Assembly (NCBI GenBank): GCA_009927835.1
Contig: RFMG01000161.1
Span: 1 to 36,172 of the forward strand
From: Verrucomicrobiota bacterium
GTDB lineage: Bacteria; Verrucomicrobiota; Verrucomicrobiia; Methylacidiphilales; Verrucolacustridaceae
Direction: 5' to 3'
DNA: 36,172 bases
Shown here in pieces: positions 9,938 to 31,021 of this stretch; within the stretch, counting starts at the first letter, position 1; each line of letters starts with the position of its first letter. Below the pieces are notes generated by a model, which was not told the origin of the DNA, did not search any database, and was given only the letters and a program-made list of their open reading frames with translations. The translations under genes were made by a program, and so were the position numbers.

Positions 9938-10061
9938 CGTAAGTAATTACTAGTCATATATCTATACGATTTTTGAAAAAATATTCAGGGTTTTTTACGA
10001 AAACCTGGTGAGTGGGCGGAATGGTAGATGCAATTTTATGATCCGGAGGTATACTTTCCAA

Positions 10062-12460
10062 ATGTTGAGAGCTGCATTTCCGATTTTTTTCTCGGCACTT
10101 CTTTGTTTTCAAATCATTGGGGGTCAACTCCGTTCGGAAACATTGCGTCCGAGTCCAGGTTCCCAGGCCACTGCCATGCTGGTTCAAAAACTCCTGCAGG
10201 ATCACCATTTTGCAGGAAAACCGCTCACGGAGGAAAAGGCCAAGGATTGGATCAAGGCGTATATGGAGTCCCTCGACTACAATCATGCCTTCTTTTTGGA
10301 TAGCGATCTGGTCGCCTATCAAAACACCTACGCCTCCCAACTGGCCCAGTTGACTCAACAGGGAAACACCACCCCGGCATTTGAAATTTTTGCGGGATTC
10401 AATGAACGGGTTCGCGACCGTTTGGCGTGGATCAAAAAACGCCTTCTTCTTCCTTTCGATTTCTCATCCGACCAGAGTTACGAAATCGACCGCACAAAAG
10501 TGGGTTGGCCGGTCGACGCCGCCGCCGCCAATGAGCTTTGGGAACGTCGCCTGAAGTTCGACATGCTGAGGGAAAAACTGGCTCCCAAAACGAAAAGCGC
10601 CAAGGAGAAGAAAAAAACCGACGAAGATCCCCTGGCGACGGTGACAAAACGGTACGACCGCCTGATCAAAAACCTTGAGGAGTACGACAACGAGGAAATT
10701 CTCCAACTCTACCTCACCTCGCTGGCCAGCCTGTACGATCCTCACTCCAGTTATATGAGCGCGGCCACCCTGGAGGATTTCTCCATCGGCATCAAATTGG
10801 CTCTCTGCGGGATTGGGGCGGTGCTTGCCTCCGAGGATGGCTACTGCGTCATCAAGGAGCTGGTCCCGGGGGGGCCCGCGGATCTGGACGGGCGATTGAA
10901 GGTGGGCGACAAAATCATCGGCGTGGCCCAAGGGGAAAACGCCTTCGACGACATTGTGGACATGAAGTTGCGGAATGCCGTAAAGAAGATCCGCGGCCCC
11001 AAAAATACCCTTGTGCGTCTTCAGGTGATCCCGGCGGGAAGCAACGCGGGAGAGCAGCGGGAGGTGCAGATCACACGGGACGAGGTCAAATTGGCCGCCC
11101 AACAGGCCACCGCATCAGTTTACGATGTTCCCAAACCAAGCCGCCCCGCAACTGCAGCTGCCGATTCCGCTCCCCCAAAAAAAACGAAGGAAGATCCGAA
11201 TTGGTGGGAGAAGACAGTCAGCAGCCTGACGGGGAAAGAGCCCTCGAAGGACTCCGGGACGCCCCAAAAAGTCACTGAGATCCCCCCCGTTCCTTCCGAC
11301 TCCTGGCGGATCGGCGTCATCGACCTGCCTAGTTTCTACGGTGAGGTCGGAGGCGCCGATTCGGCCGCAAGTGGGAACGGGGCACGCCCTCGCTCCACCT
11401 CCGAGGACGTGGAAGTTCTCCTGAAAAAGCTGAATCAAGCTCAGGTGGATGGAGTCATCCTCGATCTCCGAAAGAACGGAGGGGGCCTTCTGGACGAGGC
11501 GGTGACCCTCACCGGCCTTTTCATTGACCAGGGACCGGTTGTTCAGGTTCGGGACAGCAAGGGGACGGTCATTCAAAGGACCGACGACCATCCTGGCTCC
11601 CTTTATCAAGGCCCCCTGCTGGTACTGACAGGACGCCGCAGCGCCTCTGCCTCTGAAATTGCCGCCGGTGCCCTGCAAAACTACGGCCGTGCCCTGGTGG
11701 TGGGAGAGAAAAGCACCCATGGCAAAGGCACCGTGCAGGCGTCGTCGAACTGGGACGGTTTCTGAAACAGGGCAATGAAAAGGCCCAACCGCAGGCGGGA
11801 GCGGTCAAACTCACCATCCAAAAATTTTACCTTCCCAACGGACACTCGACCCAGAATCGCGGCGTCATCCCCGACATCTCCATTCCCTCCCCTCTGGACT
11901 ACATGAAAATCGGGGAATCCGACCTGCCCAATGCCCTCCCTTGGGACGAGATTGGCCCCAGCCGGTTCTCCGCCACCAAAATCGATCCATCCTTAAAAGG
12001 CGTTCTTCAGGAAAAATCAAAAGATCGGATCGCCTCCGACCGAAATATGGAGTTCCTGAAGGCGGACATCGAGAAAGTCCGTGCGAGGATCGAGTCGGGC
12101 AAGATCTCGCTCAACGAGACGAACCGGATTCAGGAAAAAAATGTGGAGGATCTCCGCAACGACGAACGCAAGAAGATCGAGGAACGGCTGGAGAAGAGCT
12201 CCGAGCCCAAGGCGCGTCTTGTGATCGATGACAAAAAAGGAGTCATCCTCTCGGACAAGGACCCCAAAAAGAAAAAACCCACCCTGGAAGATTCGGCTGA
12301 CGGGGAGTCCGAGGGTGTCACCGATGCGGTCGACTTGGCCGAGGCCTATGAACTTGGTGAGGCTCTCCAAATCATGAAGGATTGGCTCAATTTTCAATCC
12401 ACGCATGGTGGCTCAACGATTGCCAAGGATCGGTCAAATCCCCCCACCGCCTTAAAATAA
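10062..12460 (+). CDS. prc: C-terminal processing (tail-specific) protease, S41 family, with PDZ and C-terminal tail domain; reading frame broken near 11739
   Basis: MLRAAFPIFFSALLCFQ signal peptide after GGAGG; PDZ GIGAVLASEDGYCVIKELVPGGPADLDGRLKVGDKIIGV; catalytic region TGRRSASASEIAAGALQNYGRALVVGEKSTHGKGTVQ. The +2 frame continues VVELGRFLKQGNEKAQPQAGAVKLTIQKFYLPNGHSTQNRGVIPDI through to 12460. Confidence 0.9.
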
Positions 12461-17262: not shown

Positions 17263-19038
17263 TTATCCCACTGCAACCGCGTGTTTCGGCTTGCCCGAGG
17301 GGGATTCGGAGATCGGCGGTTCGTTCTGCATGATGTAATCCCGCACATGCCCCGGAACGCTGTAGTCGTAAGGCCCGCGATAAACGGTGGGTGTGGTCCC
17401 GAAATTCCCGTGTCCCGGAGGGGATGCCACCGTCCACTCGAGAGTGGTCGCCTCCCAAGGGTTGTTCCCTGCGGGAGCGCCAACCTTGAGGCTTCGGAAA
17501 AAGTTCCAAAGGAAGATGAACTGGGAGAAGCCAAGACCGATGGCCGCCAAAGTGATGAACTGGTTGATGGGTTGAAGCGCCCGCAGATGCTCGTACGCCG
17601 TGGGGTCGGCAATCCGACGCATCATTCCCCCCAAACCCACATTGTGCATGGGAAAGAAACAGAGGTTAAAAAAGACGAAGGTGAGGGCGAAGTGAATCTT
17701 TCCCAAGGTCTCGTCCAACATCCGTCCGAACATTTTCGGATACCAAGTGTAGAGGGCGGCAAAGATGCCAAAAATGCTTCCTCCGAACAAAACGTAGTGA
17801 ATGTGAGCGACGATGAAGTATGTGTGATGGACAAAGATATCCACCGGAGTGGAGGCCATGAAGATTCCCGAAAGGCCACCGATAACGAACATCAAAACGA
17901 AGGCCAAGGCATTGAGCATGGCCGTGGTAAAACGAATCGATCCGCCCCAGAGGGTGCCCAGCCAGTTGAACGTTTTGATGGCGGACGGAACGGCGATCAC
18001 CATCGTTGAGACACCAAACGCGGCCGAGAGCACCAGATTCATTCCCGATACGAACATGTGGTGACCCCAGACGATGAACCCCAGGAAACCGATGGCCACC
18101 ATCGCGTAGACCATTGCCCGGTATCCAAAAATCGGTTTTCTGGCAAAAATCGCCAACACATCGCTGACCAGTCCCATGGCGGGAAGGATCATGATGTACA
18201 CCTCCGGGTGGCCGAAAAACCAGAACAGATGCTGCCAAAGAAGGGGTTGCCCCCCGTGCGCCGGATTAAAGAAGTTGGTCCCGGAATTCAGATCCAAAAA
18301 GAGCATGGCGGCGGCTGCGGAAAGAACCGGGACGGCCAACAAAAGTAAAAAGGCCGTAATGAAAAGCGCCCAAACGGCGAGAGGCATCCGGAAGAAGCCC
18401 ATTCCAGGAGCCCTCATGTTGACGATCGTGGTGATGTAGTTGAAGGCCCCCATGATCGAGGCGAGTCCATTGATGAAAATACCCACGCACCAGAGACTCT
18501 GACCGATCTGGGTGTTGTTGTAGGCGGCGACGGAGCTCAACGGTGCGTACGAGGTCCATCCACCCGCAGCAGCTCCCCCGGCGACCAAAAAGCTGGCCAT
18601 CAAAATGATTCCAGACAAGGCGTAGGCCCAGTAGGACAGCTCATTGATCAGTGGAAAGGCCATGTCCCCCGCCCCGATCTTGAGCGGGATAAGGTAATTT
18701 CCAAATGCGCCGATCAAGAGCGGCATCACCACGAGAAACACCATCACCGTGGCGTGCATGGTGAAAAGAGAGTTGTAAAACTGCGGGTTGATGAACGCGA
18801 GGGACATGGGATTGCCAACATCGCCATTCGGCATGACCTGGGTCGACGGATAGGCCAACTGCCAGCGAAGGAGGAGAGCCAACCCTCCCCCGACAAAAAG
18901 GAAAAGAAGCGATGTGAAGAGGTATTGAAGCCCAATGATCTTATGATCCATCGACCAAAGGTATTTCCCCCATCCCGAGGACTCGGTGTGCTCATGGGAG
19001 GAGTGCGTGGCGGCGTGAGGTAAGGTTGCGGTTGTCAT
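17263..19038 (-). CDS. ctaD: Cytochrome c oxidase subunit I (A-type, aa3)
   Basis: HATVMVFLVVMPLLIGAFGNYLIPLKIGAGDMAFP; WFFGHPEVYIMILPAMG; VWGHHMFVSGMN; VHHTYFIVAHIHYVLFGG: all canonical heme/CuB ligands present. Confidence 0.97.
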   Translation of the reverse strand: MTTATLPHAATHSSHEHTESSGWGKYLWSMDHKIIGLQYLFTSLLFLFVGGGLALLLRWQLAYPSTQVMPNGDVGNPMSLAFINPQFYNSLFTMHATVMVFLVVMPLLIGAFGNYLIPLKIGAGDMAFPLINELSYWAYALSGIILMASFLVAGGAAAGGWTSYAPLSSVAAYNNTQIGQSLWCVGIFINGLASIMGAFNYITTIVNMRAPGMGFFRMPLAVWALFITAFLLLLAVPVLSAAAAMLFLDLNSGTNFFNPAHGGQPLLWQHLFWFFGHPEVYIMILPAMGLVSDVLAIFARKPIFGYRAMVYAMVAIGFLGFIVWGHHMFVSGMNLVLSAAFGVSTMVIAVPSAIKTFNWLGTLWGGSIRFTTAMLNALAFVLMFVIGGLSGIFMASTPVDIFVHHTYFIVAHIHYVLFGGSIFGIFAALYTWYPKMFGRMLDETLGKIHFALTFVFFNLCFFPMHNVGLGGMMRRIADPTAYEHLRALQPINQFITLAAIGLGFSQFIFLWNFFRSLKVGAPAGNNPWEATTLEWTVASPPGHGNFGTTPTVYRGPYDYSVPGHVRDYIMQNEPPISESPSGKPKHAVAVG

Positions 19039-19050
19039 GGTTGGATCTCC

Positions 19051-19917
19051 TTATCTTTGATTCAAAACAACGGGGGTCCCGGAGGTTGCGCCGGAGACAG
19101 CGGGTGCGGGGGCTTTCCCCTTCGCCCAGGATTCGTACTCGGCGACGGGGACAACGGACAGCTTGCCGAACATTTTGTAGTGGCCCTGTCCACACAGCTG
19201 GTTGCAGGCCAACTGAAACTTCCCCGTCGCCTCCGCTTTCAGCCAGACAAAGTCGTACACACGTCCGGGCACCATGTCCTGGTAGAGGCGAAACTCGGGC
19301 ACATAAAACGCGTGGATGACATCCTTGGATCCCAGATACAGACGGATCGGTCGGTTGACCGGGAATACGATCTCCCCGTACGTCGTGAAATCGTCCAACC
19401 CGTCCTGATCCGCAGGATCCACCCCGAATGGATTTTCCTTGCTGATTTTTTTGGCGTCCATTTTGGCCAATTTCCCGTCCGCACCGGGATAACGCACATT
19501 CCAACCGAACTGCTCCCCCACAACCGCCACTGGCAGGGCGTCCGCCGGGGGCGTTTGACGCCTCATCCGGCTCCACTCCTCGTTGCCGTAAATGGCCAAT
19601 CCAAGGAAGATAAATACCGGGATCGTGGTCCAAACCACCTCCAAGGTGTTGTTTCCGTGGCTGTGGATGGCCGGAACACCCGGACGCGCACGATATTTTA
19701 CCAAAAAGAAAGCCATGACTGAAAAGACACCGATGAAGGTAACGCCGGTCAAAAGGAGGATCACATAAAAGATAAAATCGATGGCATGCCCGAACATGTT
19801 CACGTTTCGAGGCAACCACCAAACACTGGTTTCCCGGATCTCCGCTTGGGCCGAGGACAAGCCCAAAAGGATCAGGGTTATGAAGATGGAAAGAGGACGC
19901 CCGAAAAGCTTATGCAT
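19051..19917 (-). CDS. ctaC: Cytochrome c oxidase subunit II (CuA), no fused cytochrome c domain
   Basis: MHKLFGRPLSIFITLILLGLSSAQA signal; HSHGNNTLEVVWTTIPVFI; VIHAFYVPEFRLYQDMVPGR; CNQLCGQGHYKM CuA motif; ends shortly afterwards. Confidence 0.95.
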   Translation of the reverse strand: MHKLFGRPLSIFITLILLGLSSAQAEIRETSVWWLPRNVNMFGHAIDFIFYVILLLTGVTFIGVFSVMAFFLVKYRARPGVPAIHSHGNNTLEVVWTTIPVFIFLGLAIYGNEEWSRMRRQTPPADALPVAVVGEQFGWNVRYPGADGKLAKMDAKKISKENPFGVDPADQDGLDDFTTYGEIVFPVNRPIRLYLGSKDVIHAFYVPEFRLYQDMVPGRVYDFVWLKAEATGKFQLACNQLCGQGHYKMFGKLSVVPVAEYESWAKGKAPAPAVSGATSGTPVVLNQR

Positions 19918-20160
19918 GGGGAGCAGTCTCCAATGAATTTTCCACTTTTCAACCCCTTCCCCCGCTTTTTGCCTTGGGCAGCTCACATCCGCCCGTCGAA
20001 TCGGGAAAGTCAGAGGGAAAAAAGCCTTAAACAAAACTAATAAGCCCTGGCTTTGGGTTAATACTTCTAATGCATCCTTGATGAGACACAAAAGAGTCTC
20101 CATTTTCACCTATGCACCATCGTGAGCACGATATTTTGAAAAGTTTCCGCTGATCCCCCT
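19918..20160. promoter_or_regulatory. Intergenic region between the divergent aa3 and ACIII operons; expected to hold promoters for both
   Basis: 243-bp gap, AT-richer than its surroundings, between divergent starts at 19917 (-) and 20161 (+). Contains the inverted repeat ATCGTG-AG-CACGAT at 20119-20132. No promoter elements assigned with certainty. Confidence 0.4.
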
Positions 20161-20814
20161 ATGGCCAACATATTTCCACGCTTCAGCAACTGGTTGCCGA
20201 TCAAAATTTTGGTCTGCATCACGATTATTGCGGCCAGCGTGGTTTCGGGAATGGCCTACTACTTCACCCCAAAATACACCCGGGTCGGTTATCAGCCCAC
20301 ACAACCTGTAGCCTTTGATCACTCGCTGCATGTGAATCAACTCGGAATGGATTGTCGCTACTGCCACACGGGTGTGGAAAAATCCTCCCACTCCAATGTG
20401 CCCCCCACCCAGACCTGCATGAACTGCCACACGCAGATCAAATCCCAAAGCCCCAAGCTCGCGGCGGTGCGGGAATCATGGAAATCCGGCAACCCCGTTC
20501 CTTGGGTCCGAATCCATAAGGCCCCTGATTACGTCTATTTCAATCACGCCGTTCACGTGAATCGCGGGGTCAGTTGCGTTGCCTGCCACGGCAATGTCAA
20601 CCATATGGAGGTGGTCTACCATGCGAAACCTCACAGCATGGGTTGGTGCCTCGAATGCCACCGCGCTCCGGAAAATTATCTTCGCCCGCTGGATCAGGTC
20701 ACCAATCTGGATTGGGAACCGCCCACAGGAACCACCCAGCGCGAGCTTGGCGAAAAATTTGTCAAAGAGTGGAATGTCAAGCCGCCCGTAAGTTGCAGCG
20801 GGTGCCACCGATAA
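20161..20814 (+). CDS. actA: Alternative complex III, multiheme cytochrome c subunit ActA (5 CxxCH)
   Basis: Five heme motifs: CRYCH, CMNCH, CVACH, CLECH, CSGCH; N-terminal TM anchor; first gene of the act order. Confidence 0.93.
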   Translation: MANIFPRFSNWLPIKILVCITIIAASVVSGMAYYFTPKYTRVGYQPTQPVAFDHSLHVNQLGMDCRYCHTGVEKSSHSNVPPTQTCMNCHTQIKSQSPKLAAVRESWKSGNPVPWVRIHKAPDYVYFNHAVHVNRGVSCVACHGNVNHMEVVYHAKPHSMGWCLECHRAPENYLRPLDQVTNLDWEPPTGTTQRELGEKFVKEWNVKPPVSCSGCHR

Positions 20815-20817
20815 AAC

Positions 20818-23800
20818 ATGAAACGCACTCTTCTTCATCCCTCCTCCTCCCAGGGCCGCACCTACTGGCGGAGCCTTGGTGAATACGCCAAGACCCCGGA
20901 TTTTGAGGAGTGGTTGCACCGTGAGTTTCCTGCCGGAGCGGCGGAGTGGGACAATGATCCACTCTCCAGGCGAAGTTTTATTCGGCTCATGGGGGCCTCG
21001 CTGGCTCTTGCCGGGCTAAGCCTCTCGGGTTGCCGACGACCCGAAGCTCACCTCGTGCCCTTCACGCAATCTCCCGAATGGGTGGTGCCTGGAAAAAAAA
21101 TGTCCTTTGCCACGGCCCAACCCCGGCGCCGAGGTGCCGTGCCCCTTCTGGCGACAACCTTTGACGGCCGCCCGATCAAGATGGAGGGCAATCCCCTCCA
21201 CCCTCTCAGCCAAGGCTCGAGCGATAACCATGCCCAAGCCTCGATCCTTGACCTTTATGACCCGGCCCGGCGCCAACACCTCACTAGGAACGGCAAAAAG
21301 GCCACGGCGAGCGAATGGGAGGAGGAGATCAACCGGATTCGGGCCGAGTCCCTCTCCACTTCCGGATCCTCCTTGGCAATCCTGGCGGATGAGCAACTCT
21401 CCCCCACCCGCGAGAGGCTGCGCGGCGAACTTCAGCGTCAGTTTCCCCAATCCACTTGGGCCACATACGAACCCCTCTCCCCCGGACGGGATCTGGAGGC
21501 TTCCGCCCTCGTTTTTGGGGACAATACCGAATTCCGTCCCAATCTTTCGGCCGCCACTGCCATTCTCTCCGTCGACTGCGATTTTCTGGGATCGGAGGAG
21601 GGAGATTTAAACGACACGCGGGGTTTTGCCTCCGGTCGCCGGACCCGCAAGCCCTCCGATCCAACCAATCGTCTTTATGTGGTCGAGCCCAGGTTCTCCC
21701 TCACCGGCACCATGGCGGATCACCGTCTTCGCCTTCGCCCGAGCGCGATCGGGGCTTTCCTGCTTGAACTCGCCCGTCAAATCCGTGCCGCCAAGCCTGG
21801 CGCCGAACTCAACACGCTCCTCAGCCAATCCCCCGACCTTCCCCTTCCGGAGGGAGTGGATCCGGCCTGGATTCGGGAGTGTGCCGTGGATCTGGTTTCC
21901 CGCGGCAACCACTCCCTTCTGCTCGTCGGTCGCCGACTTCCCGTCTCACTTCAGGCCCTGGCTCTCGCGTTAAACTCCGCGCTCGGCTCGGTCGGCACGA
22001 CCCTTCTTGTGCAGCCCCGCCGTGCCACCACCTCAACCACAATTTCACAACTCGCTGAAAAAATCAGGGGTGGAACCGTTCGCACGTTGATCATCCTGGG
22101 GGGTGACCCGGTTTACAACGCGCCGGCCGACCTGAACTGGGGGGCCCTGCAATCCTCCATTCCAAATACCCTGCATCTGTCCCCGCTCTCCAATGCCACC
22201 TCCAAACAGTCGACCTGGTCGATCCCGGGAACCCATTATCTCGAGTCTTGGGGGGACGGATTGGCCATCGATGGCTCCTACCTGTCGATCCAACCCATGA
22301 TCCAGCCCCTCTGGAACGGACAAAGTCAGCTCCAACTCCTCTCCCGCATTCTTGCTCTCCCCAGCCCGATCGGCCCCTCCCTCATCCGTGAAACATTTGC
22401 CCAACGCACGGGTCTAACTGCTGAAAAGCTGGAGCAGGGCTGGAACGATTTTGTCCGCGAGGGGTTTTGGATAACCCCATCCGCCGCGCCAACACCCCGA
22501 CCCGCAAATCTCAATGGCGTCGCAGGCCTCCTTTCCCAGGTCGCAAACTCTCCCGCAGAGGACCCTTCCTCCTTGGAGGCACTCTTCATCCAGTCGGCCG
22601 CCGTGGATGACGGGCGCTACGCCAATAATGGATGGATGCAGGAGTGGCCGGACCCGATGACCAAACTCACCTGGGATAATGCAATTCTTCTTTCGCCGGA
22701 AACCGCACGGACGCTCGGCCTGAAAAACGATATCATAAAAGGGATCCTTGTGGCCGATGTGGTGCAGGCCACTTTGGCCGGGCGGTCGATCGACGCACCT
22801 GTGGTCATTGCGCCCGGGCATGCCAATTTCTGCGCGAGTCTCCCTCTTGGTTATGGACAGGAATGGGGTGGTCCGATTGCGAAAGGCGCGGGGTTTGACG
22901 CTTATCGTCTGCGAGCCTCCTCGACGGACTATCATGCCCCCGGACTTCAACTGAAACGCACGGGTCGGACACAGCAACTCGCCATCACCCAGGAACACCA
23001 GGTGATGGAGGGTCGCGATCTCGTCCGTGAGGCATCCGTAGATGAGTTTAAGGAAAATCCTGCGTGGGCAAAAACCGTCGGAATGGATGCCCACATTCCG
23101 CCCAATCAAACCTTTTACCCGAATCCGAAATTGGACGGCCAGCACCAGTGGGCGATGGTGGTCGATCTGTCCACCTGCACCGGCTGCAATGCCTGCGTGA
23201 CCGCGTGCACCGCGGAAAACAATGTCCCGATCGTCGGCAAAGACCAGGTCATGAAGGGGCGTGAGATGCACTGGATCAGGGTGGATCGTTACTACACGGG
23301 AGAACCCGAGGCGCCCGAGTCGGTCTCGCAACCCATCGCCTGCATGCAGTGCGAAAATGCCCCATGCGAAACCGTCTGCCCGGTCAATGCGACCGTTCAC
23401 AACGAGGAGGGGTTGAACGTGATGGCCTACAATCGCTGCATCGGCACGCGGTACTGCGCAAACAATTGCCCCTACAAAGTAAGGCGTTTCAACTTCTTCG
23501 ATTACAATCAACGCGCCCTCGACAAGCTGTATTGGGGACCCGTTGCCCCCAAGGGAACCGAGGAAACAATCAAGTTGCAGAAAAATCCGAATGTCACGGT
23601 CCGGATGCGCGGTGTCATGGAAAAGTGCACCTTCTGCGTCCAGAGAATCGAGGACGCAAAGATCGCCGCACGGGTCCGGGCTCGCGACTCCGCCGACCTC
23701 AGGATTCCAACCGGAACGCTCAAGACCGCCTGCCAGCAGGCCTGCCCTGCGGAGGCGATCGTCTTTGGGGACCTGCTCGACGAATCCTCCGAGGTGAAAA

Positions 23801-23973
23801 AGTTGCGGGAACTCCCCCAGAACTACTCCCTTCTGGAATACCTGAATGTTCGTCCCCGGTTGACCTATTTGGGCAGGATACGCAACCCCAACCCAGCCAT
23901 GCCGGGCGCCCGCACCCACTACGCCTCCACCCACGGAGCCTCGTCTCACGCCAAACAAGGGAGCCACGAATGA
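20818..23973 (+). CDS. actB: Alternative complex III ActB (molybdopterin oxidoreductase-like domain plus Fe-S domain)
   Basis: Tat-like [24 protein letters not shown] about 40 residues in; [76 protein letters not shown] clusters; 1051 aa. Confidence 0.96.
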
Positions 23974-25433
23974 GAGCGGACAACCCCTCCTCCCAAGCTG
24001 CCTTTGCAAAGGCCGCAGCCTACTTGGAGCGCCAACCCCTCGTTTCCAACCATCGTCCCCTTTCCTGGATCACCCAGCACGTCTGCCAAATTGTGGAGGA
24101 GCGCGCCCCGAAGTGGTGGTGGATTCTCACCTTTCTTTTCGGGGGGATGGCCACCTTGGTTCCGGCGATGTTGACCTACCTCGTATCCACCGGAGTCGGG
24201 GTGTGGGGGCTGAATGTTCCCGTTTGCTGGGCGTGGGACATCACCAACTTCGTGTTCTGGATCGGAATCGGCCACGCGGGAACCCTCATCTCCGCGATTC
24301 TTTTTCTCACCCGCCAAAAGTGGCGCACCTCGATCAATCGCTCGGCAGAGGCGATGACCATTTTCGCCGTGATCTGCGCCGGAATTTTTCCCGCTTTTCA
24401 CGTGGGACGGGTGTGGATGGCGTGGTTCCTGGCCCCCATTCCCAATGCCAATGCCATCTGGCAGAATTTTCGCAGCCCGCTCCTCTGGGACGTTTTTGCC
24501 GTATCCACCTATTTCACCGTCTCCCTCATCTTCTGGTATTTGGGCCTGATCCCCGACCTTGCTTCCCTGCGGGATCGCGCCACCACCCGGCTTCGTCAAA
24601 TGGCATACGGTCTGCTGGCCTTGGGTTGGCGGGGCTCCAACCGTCACTGGACCCATTACGAGAAAACGTATCTCATTCTCGCGGGAATTTCGACCCCGCT
24701 CGTTTTGTCCGTGCACAGTGTCGTGTCTTTCGATTTTGCCACTTCCATCGTTCCCGGATGGCACACCACCATCTTTCCACCGTACTTTGTGGCGGGCGCC
24801 ATCTTTGGCGGTTTCGCTATGGTTCTCACCCTTCTCATTCCCTTTCGCGAGATCTATCACCTTCACGACCTCGTCACCGACAAGCACATCGACAACATGT
24901 GCAAGATCATCCTGCTCACCGGGTCCCTGGTCGGATACGCGTACTCGATGGAGTTCTTTATCGCCTGGTACAGCGGCAACCCTTTTGAAATCTACGCCTT
25001 CACAAACCGTGCCTTTGGTCCCTACTGGTGGGCGTACTGGGCCATGATCACGTGCAACGTCGCTGCTCCCCAGCTTTTCTGGTTCAAGTATTGCCGCCAA
25101 AACCCCTGGGTCGTCCTGGCCATCGTGATGTTTCCCAACACGGGCATGTGGTTCGAAAGGTTTGTCATCATCGTCACGTCGATCCACCGCGATTTCCTCC
25201 CCTCCTCCTGGGGTTACTTCTCCCCGACTTGGGTCGACATCAGCCTCTTTATCGGAACCATCGGTCTCTTTGTTTTCCTTTTCCTCCTTTTCGTCCGTTT
25301 CCTTCCGATCATTAACATGTTTGAGGTGAAGGGCATCACGCCGCAGGCCGATCCCCACGCCCACGACGCGGAGGAGAATCATGCCCACTCTCGGCAGACC
25401 CCCACCCACACACCTTCGCAGGTGCACGCATGA
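23970..25433 (+). CDS. actC: Alternative complex III ActC (NrfD/PsrC-like quinol-interacting membrane subunit)
   Basis: MRADNPSSQ start overlaps the actB stop (ATGA); [59 protein letters not shown]...FHVGRVW...[39 protein letters not shown]. Confidence 0.96.
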
Positions 25434-26017
25434 TTCAGCCCTCCTCATCTCTATTCGGTTTGGGGGCGGAGTTCTCCTCCGCCGCTGCTCTTCTTGAAGC
25501 TGCCAAAAGGATCCATGCCCACGGTTTTCGCAAATGGGATGTGTACTCCCCTTTCCCGATCCATGGAATGGATCACGCCATGGGTTTCAAACGCTCCCGT
25601 GTTTCCCTTTTTTCACTCCTGGGCGGTTGCACCGGACTGACGGTGGCTTTTGTGCTGATCTACTACACCTCCGCCATCAACTATCCCCTGATCGTGCAAG
25701 GCAAACCCTACTTCGCGCTTGAACCCTCCCTGCCGATCTTCTTTGAACTAACGATTCTTCTGACCGCCTTTGGAACGGTTCTCGGACTGCTCCTTCTGAC
25801 TCTCCTCCCGCGCCTTCATCATCCCGTCTTCAACTGGGATCGCTTCCAAAAAGCCACCGATGACGGCTTCTTTCTCGTCCTGGAATCGACGGATCCCCGG
25901 TTCGAATCGGCTTCGTCGAGGCAACTGCTGGAGCAGATCGGGGGCCTTCACATTACGGAAATATTCCAGGATCCTGAGGAAACCCCCAACCCGGTTCGGC
26001 AGGAGACAACCGCATGA
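25430..26017 (+). CDS. actD: Alternative complex III ActD (DUF3341)
   Basis: [58 protein letters not shown]; two TM segments; position after actC. Confidence 0.94.
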
Positions 26018-26635
26018 GGGGCCTGATCCGCACTTTCCTCGCCGTGTTTGGAGCCGTGACGGTCACAATCATCGCGATCGCCGGATTCCGGGGGGACTTC
26101 ACGCAGCGAACCCCCATCGAAATCTTCCCTGACATGGATCGTCAACCCAAATACAAGTCGCAAACCCCATCCCACCCTTTTCACGGAGGGCAGAGTCGAC
26201 CGTGTGCCTCCCTACGGCACGATTCCCTTCCAACTCAATACCGATCAACCTTACCGGCTTACCGGGAAGATGGGGAACATGTGGGGCACGGGGATCCCGG
26301 TCACCGTGGATGAAAAGCTCCTTGCGCGTGGTCAGGAGCGATACCAGATCAACTGTCAGGTTTGCCATGGCGCCACGGGCGCGGGAAATGGCATCACCGC
26401 CCAGTACGGACTTGTCGGAGCCGCCAGCTATCACCTCGACAAGTACAGGGAGATGGCCGACGGGGAAATCTTTAACACCATCACCCACGGAAAGGGACAA
26501 ATGGGCCCCTACCACCACATCGATGTCAATGATCGCTGGGCGATCATCGCCTATATTCGGGCCCTCCAGTTGGCGCAAAATGCCCCATCCAAACTTCTCC
26601 CCCCCGAGGTTGCGAAAGCCTCCACCAAGCCATGA
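26014..26635 (+). CDS. actE: Alternative complex III ActE (monoheme cytochrome c), reading frame broken near 26171-26173
   Basis: Frame 1 [53 protein letters not shown], then frame 2 TLFTEGRVDRVPPYGTIPFQLNTDQPYRLTGKMGNMWGTGIPVTVDEKLLARGQERYQINCQVCHGATGAGNG...; CQVCH heme site. Confidence 0.9.
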
Positions 26636-27876
26636 GCCATAGCCCCTCTCCTTTGCCCTCCGCAGAGAAACTTCGGCTTGAGAGCCTTGGTATCCTGCCG
26701 GTGCTTTTCCCGTTGATCGGCGTGATCGGCCTTGTCTCCGCCTTCGTGTGGGGACTCATGACAAACCCGATGCAACTCGCATTTTCCTATCTCTTCGCCT
26801 TCACCGTCGGGTTCACCATCTGCGCGGGAGCTCTTTTTTGGACCTTGCTTCATCACGCTCTCGATGCCGACTGGTCAGTCCTGATGCGCAGAATTCTCGA
26901 ATCCATCGCCTCCTGTTTTCCCGTTCTCCTTCTTCTCTTCCTCCCGGTCATCTTTCTTTTTTCCAGGGAGCTATGGCACTGGATGACCACCGATCTTTCG
27001 GAAGATCCGCTTCTCGCATGGAAACGACCCTTCCTGAACGAGCCTTTCTTTTATCTTCGATGCGGATTTTACCTTCTCTTTTTTTCCGTCGCCGGAATGC
27101 TCTACCGAAATCTCTCCATGAGACAGGACTTGGATGGGGACCCCAGAATCACCCTCCGCCTCCGTCATACCGCCTATGGGTTCATCCCCCTCTTTGTCCT
27201 GTGCCTGACCTTCGCCGGATTTGATTGGCTGATGTCGCTGGATCATCACTGGTACTCCACCATGTGGGGCGTCTACCTGTTTGCCGGTTGTGCCCAATCC
27301 TCGATGGCGATTCTGATCCTGGTCACGAATGGTCTGGTCCGCACGGGGCACCTCAAGGGTCTTTTCACCGTGGAACATAACCACATCATGGGAATGCTCC
27401 TTTTCGCCTTCACCACATTCTGGGGTTACATCTCCTTCAGCCAATATTTCCTCCAATGGTATGCGAATATCCCCGAGGAAACATGGTTCTTCGTTTACCG
27501 CAACACGGGGAGTTGGTACGCGTACTCGATTTTCCTCGTGGTGGGCCATTTCTTCATCCCCTTCATCCTTCTTCTCACCCAGCCGGCCAAGAGAACTCCA
27601 TGGCGAATCTGCGCCACGGCCGCCTGGGTCGTGTTGATGCACTGCGTCGACATCTACTGGATCATTATGCCCAATCTCCAACTCCAGCAGTCCCGTCACG
27701 CCGGTCATGCGGCCGCCACCACCGGATTTCACCCGCACCTCCTCGATCTTCTTGCCCTGGTCGGGGTCCTCGGAGTCCTTGGCCACACGGTTCTTTGGCT
27801 TCTTTCCCGCGGTTCAATCTTTCCTGCAAGAGACCCTCGCCTCCGCGAGAGCTTGGCGGTGACCAACTGGTTATGA
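26632..27876 (+). CDS. actF: Alternative complex III ActF (NrfD-like membrane subunit)
   Basis: Polytopic; FAGFDWLMSLDHHWYSTMWGVYLFAGCAQSSMAILILVTNGL...TVEHNHIMGMLLFAFTTFWGYISFSQYFLQWYANIPEETWFFVYRNTGSW. Confidence 0.95.
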   Translation: MSHSPSPLPSAEKLRLESLGILPVLFPLIGVIGLVSAFVWGLMTNPMQLAFSYLFAFTVGFTICAGALFWTLLHHALDADWSVLMRRILESIASCFPVLLLLFLPVIFLFSRELWHWMTTDLSEDPLLAWKRPFLNEPFFYLRCGFYLLFFSVAGMLYRNLSMRQDLDGDPRITLRLRHTAYGFIPLFVLCLTFAGFDWLMSLDHHWYSTMWGVYLFAGCAQSSMAILILVTNGLVRTGHLKGLFTVEHNHIMGMLLFAFTTFWGYISFSQYFLQWYANIPEETWFFVYRNTGSWYAYSIFLVVGHFFIPFILLLTQPAKRTPWRICATAAWVVLMHCVDIYWIIMPNLQLQQSRHAGHAAATTGFHPHLLDLLALVGVLGVLGHTVLWLLSRGSIFPARDPRLRESLAVTNWL

Positions 27877-28346
27877 GCGAATCCTCCCACTCCCCCCATC
27901 CAAAGCGGCACCCCTATCCTTCGGGACTTTGGCTTGCAGCGGGATTCCTTGGTCTTGCGAGCCTCGCTCTCCTCCTGCGCCCCCTAGGGATCAGTACCGC
28001 CACCCTTACCCAATCGGCTGCAAAAGTCCGTCTGGAGAAATTGTCAAAACTGCGGACCGAGCAGGACGCTGCCTCTTCCACCTACGGATGGGTGGACAAG
28101 TCGAAAGGTGTCGCTCACATCCCGATCGCGCAGGCCATGGAGCTGATCGTTCCCCAGCTTCGTTCCAATCCACCTCACCCCGCATATCCCATCACAACGA
28201 TCCAACCATCCGCCATCTCCGCGGCGGGTTCTCCTCTTTACCCTGAACTCCCTCCAGTCGACCCAGCTGTTGTATCAGCTGCCTTGAAGGCCGACGGAGG
28301 TGCTGCCTCTGCCACCCCTCCTTCCACGTCCCCAACAAAAAAATAG
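27873..28346 (+). CDS. Membrane-anchored small periplasmic protein with YGWVDKxKGVxxIPIxxAMELIV motif, unknown function
   Basis: MSESSHS start overlaps the actF stop (ATGA); one N-terminal TM; STYGWVDKSKGVAHIPIAQAMELIVPQL. I recall similar motifs in hypothetical proteins of oxidase/ACIII clusters. Confidence 0.75.
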   Translation: MSESSHSPHPKRHPYPSGLWLAAGFLGLASLALLLRPLGISTATLTQSAAKVRLEKLSKLRTEQDAASSTYGWVDKSKGVAHIPIAQAMELIVPQLRSNPPHPAYPITTIQPSAISAAGSPLYPELPPVDPAVVSAALKADGGAASATPPSTSPTKK

Positions 28347-28348
28347 AC

Positions 28349-29779
28349 ATGAACATCCCTTCCAGCTCCAAGACAAACTTATCCGTGGGAATCCTTTTGG
28401 TCGGCTCGGTCAGCTGGGCACTTCTCGGAGCTGGCCTCCAGGTCCTCGCGACCCTGCAACTTCTGGTTCCGTCGCTGGCATATCTCGTTCCCATTCCTTG
28501 GATCGGATATGGCCATATCGCTCCCCTGGTCTCTTTTCTGTTTACCTACGGGTGGATCGCCTCCGGTTTTCTCGGCGTCCTTCTGATATTAATCCCCAGA
28601 ATTTCCGGGATCCTGTCTCCCTCCGGGAGACTTCTTACGGGGGCTGCAATCGTATGGCAATTCGCCGTCCTTGTGGGAATGGCGGAGATTCTCTGGTCCG
28701 GGTCCACAGGACTGATCTCCCTGCCCTTTTCACGTTCGGTGACGGCTCTCTTCCTCTTGTCTTACCTGATTCTGGGATCGGCCCTGTCACGCGGATTGGG
28801 AGGTTCCTGGAAAAGTGGGCCTCTTCTTCCCCGCCTTTATCTCTTGGGCGCTCTTCTTGCTCTTCCCTTGGGATTGGGCACTGCCGAAGTCCTTCTCCGG
28901 GGGGGGCTTGCCCCGGGTGCACTGCAGATCATCATGCAGTTTGTCTGGCACTCCTTTCTGTATCATCTCTGGCTCACCCCCTTGGCTCTCGTTTTTCTGT
29001 TCCAGCTTCTTCCCGCCCTCACAGGTCGCCCGGCGGGAAGTCTCTCACTCGGACTACTTTCCTGGATTGCGACAATCGGTTTTGGAGGATGGGTGGGAAA
29101 CAGTTTGGCAAGTGAGGGTCCCATGCCTTCTTGGCTTCAAAGTGCCGGGGTTATAGCCACCCTCCTTCTTGGGGTTGCTGTCCTGGGGAACACGCTTCTC
29201 CTCAAACCGCTTTTGGACGGGAAATGGGAGGAGTGCCGGCGTCAAGTCTCCCTCCGTTTTTTTGCCGTCGGTTTTTGGTCTTACTTTGCCTCGTATGCTT
29301 GGTTGGCTTTTCTTGCGCTGCCCGGTGTTCGCCAAACAACAACCTTCACCATGGTCGGCCAAGCAACTCAAGCTCTTCTTATTTTCTCCTTTTATGGAAA
29401 TGTCCTTGCGGGTGCCGTCTATTCTCTTCTGCCCGCCTCCCGTTCCATCGGATGGCCGTCTCATCCCGCCCTTACCCTCCACTTTTGGTTCACCACTTTG
29501 GGCGCGGCCCTCATCGCTTTGGCGTACGCACTGGCCGGGATCTTCCAGGGCCTGGCTCTGAATGACCCGGGAGTGCCGATGTCCACGATCTCCAGCTACC
29601 TCCGCCCTTTCCTCGTGGTGGCTTTGGCGGGTCAGCTCTTCTGGTGGCTGGGACAGCTTGCATTTTCCTCCATTTTCTTTGCCAGCCTTCTGAAGCTTTT
29701 CCCATCTGTCGCCCCCGTTGCCATTTTTCCCCCGGATCGGGAGGCTACAAAGCAGTCTCTCACCCCCGCCCACCCATAA
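28349..29779 (+). CDS. CcoN-like (cbb3-type oxidase subunit I-like) membrane protein lacking the canonical heme/CuB histidines
   Basis: YGHIAPLVSFLFTYGWIASGFLG..., MQFVWHSFLYHLWLTPLALVFLFQLLPALTGRP...WVGNSLASEGPMPSW, and LHFWFTTLGAALIALAYALAGIFQGL keep CcoN spacing. Ligand positions are V61, S202, S252-L253, T340, A342. Confidence 0.78.
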   Translation: MNIPSSSKTNLSVGILLVGSVSWALLGAGLQVLATLQLLVPSLAYLVPIPWIGYGHIAPLVSFLFTYGWIASGFLGVLLILIPRISGILSPSGRLLTGAAIVWQFAVLVGMAEILWSGSTGLISLPFSRSVTALFLLSYLILGSALSRGLGGSWKSGPLLPRLYLLGALLALPLGLGTAEVLLRGGLAPGALQIIMQFVWHSFLYHLWLTPLALVFLFQLLPALTGRPAGSLSLGLLSWIATIGFGGWVGNSLASEGPMPSWLQSAGVIATLLLGVAVLGNTLLLKPLLDGKWEECRRQVSLRFFAVGFWSYFASYAWLAFLALPGVRQTTTFTMVGQATQALLIFSFYGNVLAGAVYSLLPASRSIGWPSHPALTLHFWFTTLGAALIALAYALAGIFQGLALNDPGVPMSTISSYLRPFLVVALAGQLFWWLGQLAFSSIFFASLLKLFPSVAPVAIFPPDREATKQSLTPAHP

Positions 29780-29783
29780 ACTG

Positions 29784-30386
29784 ATGAAATCCTCCCATGC
29801 CCTCATCTTGGTCTTTCTCCTGCTGCTCTTGACCTGGGCCGGACAGGTTGCCCTGGGATTCTTTCAAGTCGGCAGAATGGAGCCGATTCTGGATGAGGAA
29901 ACAAACTATCCGAAACCCCCTGCAGCCTCAGGCCTCGCCCAGACAGGAGCCCGCGTTTTTGCGAGTGAGGGTTGTCTGGAATGCCACTCTCTTTCCGCCC
30001 GGGGACCCACCGGCTCTGCCGATTTAACGAGAGGATGGGGCCCAAGACGGAGCGTCCCTCGCGACTATTTGTTCCGTGAACCCGCCCTCATCGGCCTGTC
30101 CAGGGTGGGTTCCGATCTTTCCAATATTGGCCTCCGGGTCCCGGAAACGAAGGATTTGATGCTGCATCTCTACAACCCCCGCCAACGAAACGCAAAGTCC
30201 AACTGCCCACCTCATCCATGGCTGTTCGACACACGCTTGGCAGGCACAGGGATCGAAAATGAGGCCCTGCCTCTGCCATCCCGGGACTGGCAGCAACTGC
30301 TGCCCACGTACAAAGCCAAGGCTCTTGTTGCCTATCTCCAGTCGCTGCGAACCGACTATTCCCTTCCCGAGGCACCTCTCAAATGA
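29784..30386 (+). CDS. CcoO-like membrane-anchored monoheme cytochrome c with axial Met replaced by Cys
   Basis: N-terminal TM; GARVFASEGCLECHSLSAR...RVGSDLSNIGLR...HLYNPRQRNAKSNCPPHPWLFDTRL...KAKALVAYLQSLRTDY parallels CcoO EGCVGCHSQM...GPDLARVGGR...[20 protein letters not shown]. Confidence 0.85.
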   Translation: MKSSHALILVFLLLLLTWAGQVALGFFQVGRMEPILDEETNYPKPPAASGLAQTGARVFASEGCLECHSLSARGPTGSADLTRGWGPRRSVPRDYLFREPALIGLSRVGSDLSNIGLRVPETKDLMLHLYNPRQRNAKSNCPPHPWLFDTRLAGTGIENEALPLPSRDWQQLLPTYKAKALVAYLQSLRTDYSLPEAPLK

Positions 30387-31021
30387 ACCCTCCTGAACTA
30401 CCCTCTCTTTCCCAAGCCCCAGCCGAACGTCATGCGCCCGTTCCCGGATGGCTCCTGGGCGTGGGGATCATCCTTTCGTTTTGGGCGGGGGGTTATCTGT
30501 TCTTCTACAGCGGCGGGTTTCGCGGGGACGTCTATGATCCGGGCCAAATAACCTGGGGACCTGTCAATACCGGACCCGTGGTTCCTCCGGATCCAAAAGT
30601 GATCGGTAAGCGACTCTTCACGGCGAACTGTGCGCAGTGCCACCAAGCCACTGGATTGGGGCAGGCTGGAGTCTACCCCCCCTTGGCAGGTTCCGAGTGG
30701 GTCACAGGCTCAAAAAACAGGCTGATTTCCATTTTACACAAGGGAATCGCAGGGCCGATCAATGTGAAGGGCCTGCTCTACAACAACAACATGCCTGCCT
30801 GGGGAGATGGCGCTCCGGTTCCCCTAAAAGATGAACAGATTTCAGCCATCCTCACCTATATTCGGAGTGATTGGGGAAATAGCGCCGACCCCGTCACAAC
30901 CGAGGAGGTGGCGGCAAAGCGCAAGGAGCTTGCCGGAATGAACAATCCTTGGAGTGAGGCGGGGTTGCTTGCCCTTCCGGATCAATCCGCCACTCCCCCT
31001 GCTCCTCCTGTCAAAAAATAA
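30383..31021 (+). CDS. Membrane-anchored monoheme cytochrome c (CcoP-like position)
   Basis: N-terminal TM WLLGVGIILSFWAGGYLFFYSGGFRGDVYDP; GKRLFTANCAQCHQATGLGQ...YPPLAGSEWV...NNNMPAWGDG...ISAILTYIRSDWGN; start overlaps the previous stop (ATGA). Confidence 0.87.
   Translation: MNPPELPSLSQAPAERHAPVPGWLLGVGIILSFWAGGYLFFYSGGFRGDVYDPGQITWGPVNTGPVVPPDPKVIGKRLFTANCAQCHQATGLGQAGVYPPLAGSEWVTGSKNRLISILHKGIAGPINVKGLLYNNNMPAWGDGAPVPLKDEQISAILTYIRSDWGNSADPVTTEEVAAKRKELAGMNNPWSEAGLLALPDQSATPPAPPVKK

Follow-up and report, generated by a model that had tools for sequence, protein, structure and literature searches.

Gene organization of the locus

The window, a 36,172-nucleotide stretch of contig RFMG01000161.1 from a Verrucomicrobiota bacterium, contained an operon composed of ActA to ActF, orfX, N, O, and P (Table 1). 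The ActA–F genes of an alternative complex III (ACIII) were present in order, and N encoded a homologue of CcoN. Partner cytochromes of the CcoO and CcoP types, as in C-type oxygen reductases, were present in the operon. The original prediction had placed N after actF in an operon with two cytochromes; both cytochromes were found, but orfX, which had no Pfam match, separated actF from N. The P protein resembled CcoP, matched FixP_N weakly, and was monohaem rather than dihaem. The axial Met of O was replaced by Cys (SNCPPHPW).

The genes of an aa3 oxidase lay next to the operon. CtaD was the sole other COX1-family gene found in the window's genome, and ActE and P were the only PF00034/PF13442 cytochromes found there. 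Since CoxB had no cytochrome domain of its own, ActE, O, and P are likely carriers to the CuA site of the aa3 oxidase. Elsewhere in the window (10008–12460), a tail-specific protease-like gene appeared to be split over two ORFs (10008–11765 and 11903–12460), possibly by a frameshift or an assembly error.

Table 1. Genes of the ACIII operon, the adjacent aa3 oxidase genes, and codons of N at the CcoN active-site positions (by alignment to 8smr_E).
Feature	Position	Strand	Remarks
CtaD	17263..19038	-	A-type oxidase subunit I
CoxB	19051..20109	-	aa3 oxidase; CuA motif; without cytochrome c domain; divergent from actA
ActA	20161..20814	+	ACIII multihaem cytochrome c
ActB	20818..23973	+	Iron-sulfur subunit
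ActC	23970..25433	+	Membrane subunit
ActD	25430..26017	+	PF11821
ActE	26204..26635	+	Monohaem cytochrome c; start codon uncertain
ActF	26632..27876	+	Membrane subunit
orfX	27873..28346	+	Small conserved protein; one predicted membrane anchor
N	28349..29779	+	CcoN homologue without ligands; 476 aa; ~12 predicted TM helices
V61 codon	28529..28531	+	Helix II low-spin haem His (8smr_E H54)
S202 codon	28952..28954	+	Helix VI CuB His (8smr_E H201)
G246 codon	29084..29086	+	Helix VII cross-linked Tyr (8smr_E Y245)
S252-L253 codons	29102..29107	+	Helix VII CuB His pair (8smr_E H251, H252)
T340, A342 codons	29366..29374	+	Two helix X haem His (8smr_E H339, H341)
O	29784..30386	+	FixO/CcoO-like monohaem cytochrome c; one CXXCH; FixO 49.5 bits
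P	30383..31021	+	FixP/CcoP-like monohaem cytochrome c; one CXXCH; axial Met retained

Fold and active-site positions of N

The N frame ran from an ATG at 28349 to a stop ending at 29779 and was open across 476 codons, as predicted. The protein passed the haem-copper oxidase superfamily profile COX1 of Pfam (PF00115; 47.6 bits, cut-off 34.8), and a phmmer search against the PDB matched cbb3 subunit I chains only, the best being 8smr_E (E=5e-10). N was a full-length CcoN homologue with a low identity of about 25%. The NCBIfam ccoN equivalog TIGR00780 was not met (33.7 bits, cut-off 583), but this cut-off was not diagnostic, as an intact relative, L021, also fell below it at 227 bits (the f, g, G, and L designations of families, genera, genomes, and loci, e.g. 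f9g12, G052, and L125, are codes). The AlphaFold model of N was of low confidence (pLDDT 56.2, pTM 0.61), good for fold assignment only and too weak for inspection of the pocket. In a Foldseek search with this weak model, the CcoN chains 8smr_E and 3mk7 ranked first with a TM score of 0.75, in agreement with a CcoN fold.

In the alignment to 8smr_E, the six haem and CuB His residues were replaced by V61, S202, S252, L253, T340, and A342, exactly as had been predicted, and the cross-link Tyr, not part of that prediction, was replaced by G246. The HFW and GIxQG motifs were retained, again as predicted. The FeB and haem b3 His ligands of NorB occupy the same columns as the CcoN ligands and were likewise absent. 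As far as can be read from sequence, these columns support the earlier claim that N would be neither a conventional oxidase nor a NO reductase, and absence of O2 reduction is inferred. Compared with CcoN (PDB codes 3mk7 and 8smr), N shared full-length homology, the fold, scaffold positions, and CcoO- and CcoP-like cytochromes in the operon, whereas the haem and CuB ligands, the cross-link Tyr, and CcoS were missing.

An alignment error at about 25% identity was ruled out, as relatives 52–61% identical to intact N showed the same losses. The low identity is not a weak point, because N of L125, 61% identical to the intact N of L129 of its own family, had all six ligands replaced (A,A,V,N,Q,Q). 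The neighbouring residues H201 and H206, which the original prediction had named as possible ligands, were also rejected: H201 was not conserved within the genus, and H206, although invariant there, aligned to Gly in intact N and was one helical turn from the CuB His. Residue H378 was invariant in the genus as well, but is a general CcoN residue, retained in 86% of ligand-less genera.

Conservation of N within the genus

The genus of the window consists of small-genome Verrucomicrobia known from MAGs. Two public MAG records of this genus (L059 and L067) were labelled Akkermansia muciniphila and Candidatus Paceibacterota, and are probably mislabelled. Gene N was found in 17 of 20 same-genus genomes and the ligands were absent in all 17, with no His at any covered ligand position; some copies were cut by contig ends, and the counts cover sequenced ligand positions. 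The dN/dS values of same-genus N were 0.06–0.11 (three pairs, Nei–Gojobori), with synonymous sites near saturation in the window pair. Ligand-less N overall gave 0.06–0.21 (ten pairs) versus 0.01–0.06 for intact N (three pairs), so the dN/dS comparison proposed earlier indicated purifying selection.

In 28 ligand-less genera, retention was 0–32% at the seven active-site columns (none of the 28 kept the cross-link Tyr), whereas the 116 other invariant columns had a median retention of 68% (p=1e-4). The membrane fold was retained, and W, G, and P positions were conserved. Conservation at the periplasmic face, sought as a sign of cytochrome docking, showed no difference; loops and helix halves all had 62–64% of the intact conservation.

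It can be all but dismissed that N is a decaying pseudogene of one lineage, open by chance. Other families do have intact homologues at this locus, and N evolved faster than ActF and ActC. Yet all 17 same-genus copies were open and ligand-less, apart from truncation of some by contig ends, their dN/dS was low, and the same state recurred in about 12 lineages that retained the operon; a local pseudogene or an assembly error was rejected on the first two of these points. The intact homologues, which had been taken in advance as a sign of a local pseudogene, do not imply one, because loss of the ligands is fixed and conserved in the genus and has occurred repeatedly without loss of the operon.

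Distribution of the operon and number of losses

The operon had the class-wide form ActABCDEF-orfX-(ccoS)-N-O-P. Within the order, most other families carried ActABCDEF-orfX-N-O-P, often followed by the aa3 operon. N was intact in f2, f4, f5, f9g13, and G028/G038 of f9g9, and ligand-depleted in f1, f3, f8, f9g12, and G052 of f9g9, with replacements that differed per group. A phylum survey with ActD gave a match in 85 of 243 genomes. In the 60 neighbourhoods read, N-O-P followed ACIII only inside the class; outside it, ACIII was followed by CoxB-CtaD wherever the neighbourhood was readable. The 43 further N genes were divided into 20 intact and 23 without most or all ligands, the latter including two f13 genomes reading H,N,Q,R,Y,H. 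In total, N was intact in 24 of 65 operons and ligand-depleted in 41; ligand loss, whose universality the original prediction had raised as a question, affected all copies found in the genus but not all those of the class.

Because ligand-less N has long branches, states were counted on a midpoint-rooted ActD+ActE+ActF tree of the 65 operons. The N state changed 11 times, nine of them forced by well-supported branches, and 11–12 times over bootstraps; with the six His not regainable, the tree gave 12 losses. Transfer of N alone could shift this count slightly. N of L125, L036, and L098, 61%, 56%, and 52% identical to intact N, were the clearest recent single losses. Some depleted proteins were only partly stripped: f13 N kept both low-spin haem ligands (8smr H54 and H341), and f9g12 N kept two CuB His.

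The question whether N always follows actF had an exception in f7. In this family, a shorter ligand-less N was found with O and P, each with one CXXCH, among unrelated genes (L050:5797–7980, L051:9963–12178) and away from any ACIII genes; a search of G026 yielded no ActD.

Other divergent relatives were observed. In f3, a second ligand-poor N-O pair (L057 ORF 8915 -, L058 ORF 9134 +, L042 ORF 2221 -) was oriented divergently from a canonical fused ccoNO and had no linkage to ACIII. A divergent COX1-family protein with weak profile scores was located just upstream of another COX1-family subunit (L140:4359–5855, L141:2942–4375), and a divergent CcoN-like protein keeping some His (L142:3898–5277) preceded a fusion of a membrane protein with a CcoO-like cytochrome.

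Loss of ccoS with the ligands

In intact operons, ccoS was located between orfX and N. A ccoS profile built from five intact-operon genes found the gene upstream of N in 24 of 24 intact operons versus 0 of 40 ligand-less operons; the 19 intact genes not used in the build scored at least 59 bits, and ligand-less operons at most 6.6 bits. The independent Pfam FixS profile matched 8 of 9 intact and 0 of 17 ligand-less genomes. In the window, ccoS was absent from the operon, where an orfX–N gap of only 2 bp left no room for it, and it was not found in the window's genome. CcoS is an imperfect genome-wide marker, since G022 has a canonical fused ccoNO elsewhere and no FixS match. A second maturation marker, FixH (CcoH), was found in no genome tested.

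It has been reported that the cofactors haem b, haem b3, and CuB depend on CcoS, and that CcoNOQP still assembles in its absence (PMC8267372). This assembly is a precedent for a cofactor-free N that assembles with its cytochromes. The loss of ccoS also bears on the idea that N binds haem or metal via other residues and retains redox chemistry, which is considered improbable. Although f13 and f9g12 kept part of the ligand set and H206 and H378 were invariant in the window's genus, the positions of these two residues, described above, do not suggest new ligands, the replacements differed among lineages without a common substitute, and the maturation gene was gone. Metal-site residues are also changed in NO dismutase and some further haem-copper superfamily proteins, which keep a catalytic metal site. 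Unlike these proteins, N has lost all or nearly all of its ligands, along with the maturation factor.

Cytochromes O and P

N, O, and P occurred together in all 41 ligand-less operons, and all 73 O and all 72 P proteins had a single CXXCH. The axial Met of P was kept in 51 of 51 aligned ligand-less rows. That of O was kept in 24 of 24 intact rows versus 27 of 50 ligand-less rows; it was replaced by Cys in the window's genus and f11, and by His, Arg, or Ala in other ligand-less lineages. The Cys-bearing O sequences of the window's genus and f11 (STCPPHPW versus STCPPHPF) were apparently convergent. Judged by these residues, loss of the Met in O and its retention in P would fit, by inference, a chain in which O need not feed a haem in N and P still works. 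Without the axial Met, O of the window's genus may not be a high-potential carrier.

In f20 (L170, L171; G264, G186), no P gene was detected alongside N and O. A P homologue adjoined the caa3 genes, which is a genomic link between P and the A-type oxidase.

The constancy of O and P helps to weigh two other functions. N could serve ACIII as a membrane subunit that binds quinone or translocates ions, in the manner of ActC or ActF, and not as a cytochrome anchor, in keeping with its long-standing ACIII linkage and its kept membrane fold with conserved W, G, and P positions. This seems rather unlikely, though not excluded, as it leaves the constant retention of O and P unexplained, f7 keeps N-O-P without ACIII, and no conserved intrahelical charged residues were identified. 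Alternatively, N, O, and P could form a redox-tuned sensor or an assembly platform off the main electron path. The replacement of the axial Met of O in several ligand-less lineages would shift the potential or permit ligand binding, but P kept a His/Met-type haem site everywhere and there was no signalling gene within the operon, and such a function is doubtful.

Other oxidases in genomes with ligand-less N

All 24 ligand-less genomes surveyed had a COX1-family gene scoring at least 410 bits, the A-type range here. Among 18 intact-N genomes, four had no such gene, and in G060 and G201 N was the sole COX1-family gene. Further ligand-less genomes also carried another COX1-family gene, apart from G052, where a contig end left just an unresolved fragment, and G054, where the gene was partial. 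The other oxidase was A-type wherever resolved. In the other half of the class (f10, f12, f16, f17, f19, and f20), a cytochrome c domain was nearly always part of the A-type oxidase, irrespective of whether N was intact. Absence of this domain from CoxB was rejected as a marker of ligand-less N, as it tracked the clade and not the N state.

In Rhodothermus marinus and Flavobacterium johnsoniae, direct electron transfer from ACIII to the oxidase via a bound cytochrome has been reported (PMC5928083, PMC8552683). These ACIII-caa3 and ACIII-aa3 supercomplexes resemble the system proposed here in that a bound cytochrome domain carries electrons directly from ACIII to an A-type oxidase. They differ in the location of the bridging haem, CoxB (caa3) or ActA, whereas a whole N-O-P module derived from another oxidase is available here.

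Verrucomicrobial methanotrophs

Family f8 was taken as Methylacidiphilaceae; PF02461 (AMO/PmoA family) genes were found in 8 of 8 genomes, with sizes of 2.2–2.5 Mb. Its ACIII-linked N read S,E,S,H,F,V or A,D,A,H,Q,T/V, with five of six ligands missing in all copies examined, and its operon contained no ccoS, which rules out a conventional oxidase. The remaining COX1-family proteins read in G043 were of the ba3, NorB, and aa3 types and a further CtaD adjoined the operon, which leaves the ACIII-linked N as its only C-type candidate. In G027 (L134, 2993–5897), a Methylacidiphilaceae genus, ActF-orfX was followed directly by CtaE and CoxB, and N, O, and P were gone.

The ACIII-adjacent cluster of verrucomicrobial methanotrophs has been called a cbb3 oxidase (PMC6688271, PMC8498564) and tied to high oxygen affinity (PMC6688271), and the cbb3 type has been counted among the terminal oxidases of methanotrophs (PMC10205796). 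The ACIII-linked C-type oxidase described for methanotrophs and Opitutaceae (PMC6688271, PMC8498564, PMC10205796) is the same cluster adjoining ACIII; unlike the published enzyme, N of the Methylacidiphilaceae type lacks five of six ligands and has no ccoS. The published cbb3 assignment looks wrong as a functional statement, though sequences of the named strains were not included. Genome-based physiology would be corrected accordingly, with the cluster listed as cbb3 oxidase being a ligand-poor module. As automatic PF00115 annotation is blind to ligand loss, microaerobic respiration should be inferred only after a check of the six ligand columns or of the presence of ccoS.

Proposed role of ligand-less N

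The sequence data establish ligand loss with conserved fold and operon, co-loss of ccoS, purifying selection, and a separate terminal oxidase. The original view that N is maintained and not decaying was borne out by its genus-wide ligand loss together with the last three of these, and there is little doubt that N is both maintained and non-catalytic.

Among the roles suggested earlier, a cytochrome-binding scaffold is inferred to fit best. N is reasonably likely to be a cofactor-free membrane scaffold on which O and P form an electron bridge between ACIII and the aa3 oxidase, a role that is inferred. N, with O, would anchor the monohaem P, and possibly O, beside ACIII. Electrons would pass from ActA/ActE to P and then to the CuA site of the aa3 oxidase. 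O2 reduction would have moved wholly to aa3, with the former oxidase persisting as the bridge. The association of N with ACIII rests on gene linkage only, and f7 indicates that the module can also occur apart from ACIII. In f10, f12, f16, f17, f19, and f20, the bridge is not strictly needed, since the oxidases have their own cytochrome c domain. Against a bridge, G027 still has ACIII and CtaE/CoxB without N, O, and P.

For the class as a whole, the balance tips only slightly toward conversion of an ACIII-linked cbb3 oxidase into a cofactor-free electron-transfer module of an ACIII-aa3 assembly, about a dozen independent times. No earlier description of a ligand-less CcoN was found in a literature search that did not cover most subscription journals. 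If the conversion is true, it would be a recurrent and predictable route from terminal oxidase to scaffold, with the maturation factor co-lost each time. A central respiratory enzyme would have repeatedly lost its chemistry while its body was kept, and a scaffold role of CcoN would become directly testable. Close pairs of intact and ligand-less N (such as L129/L125 and L052/L036) are natural experiments on the roles of an oxidase subunit beyond O2 reduction.
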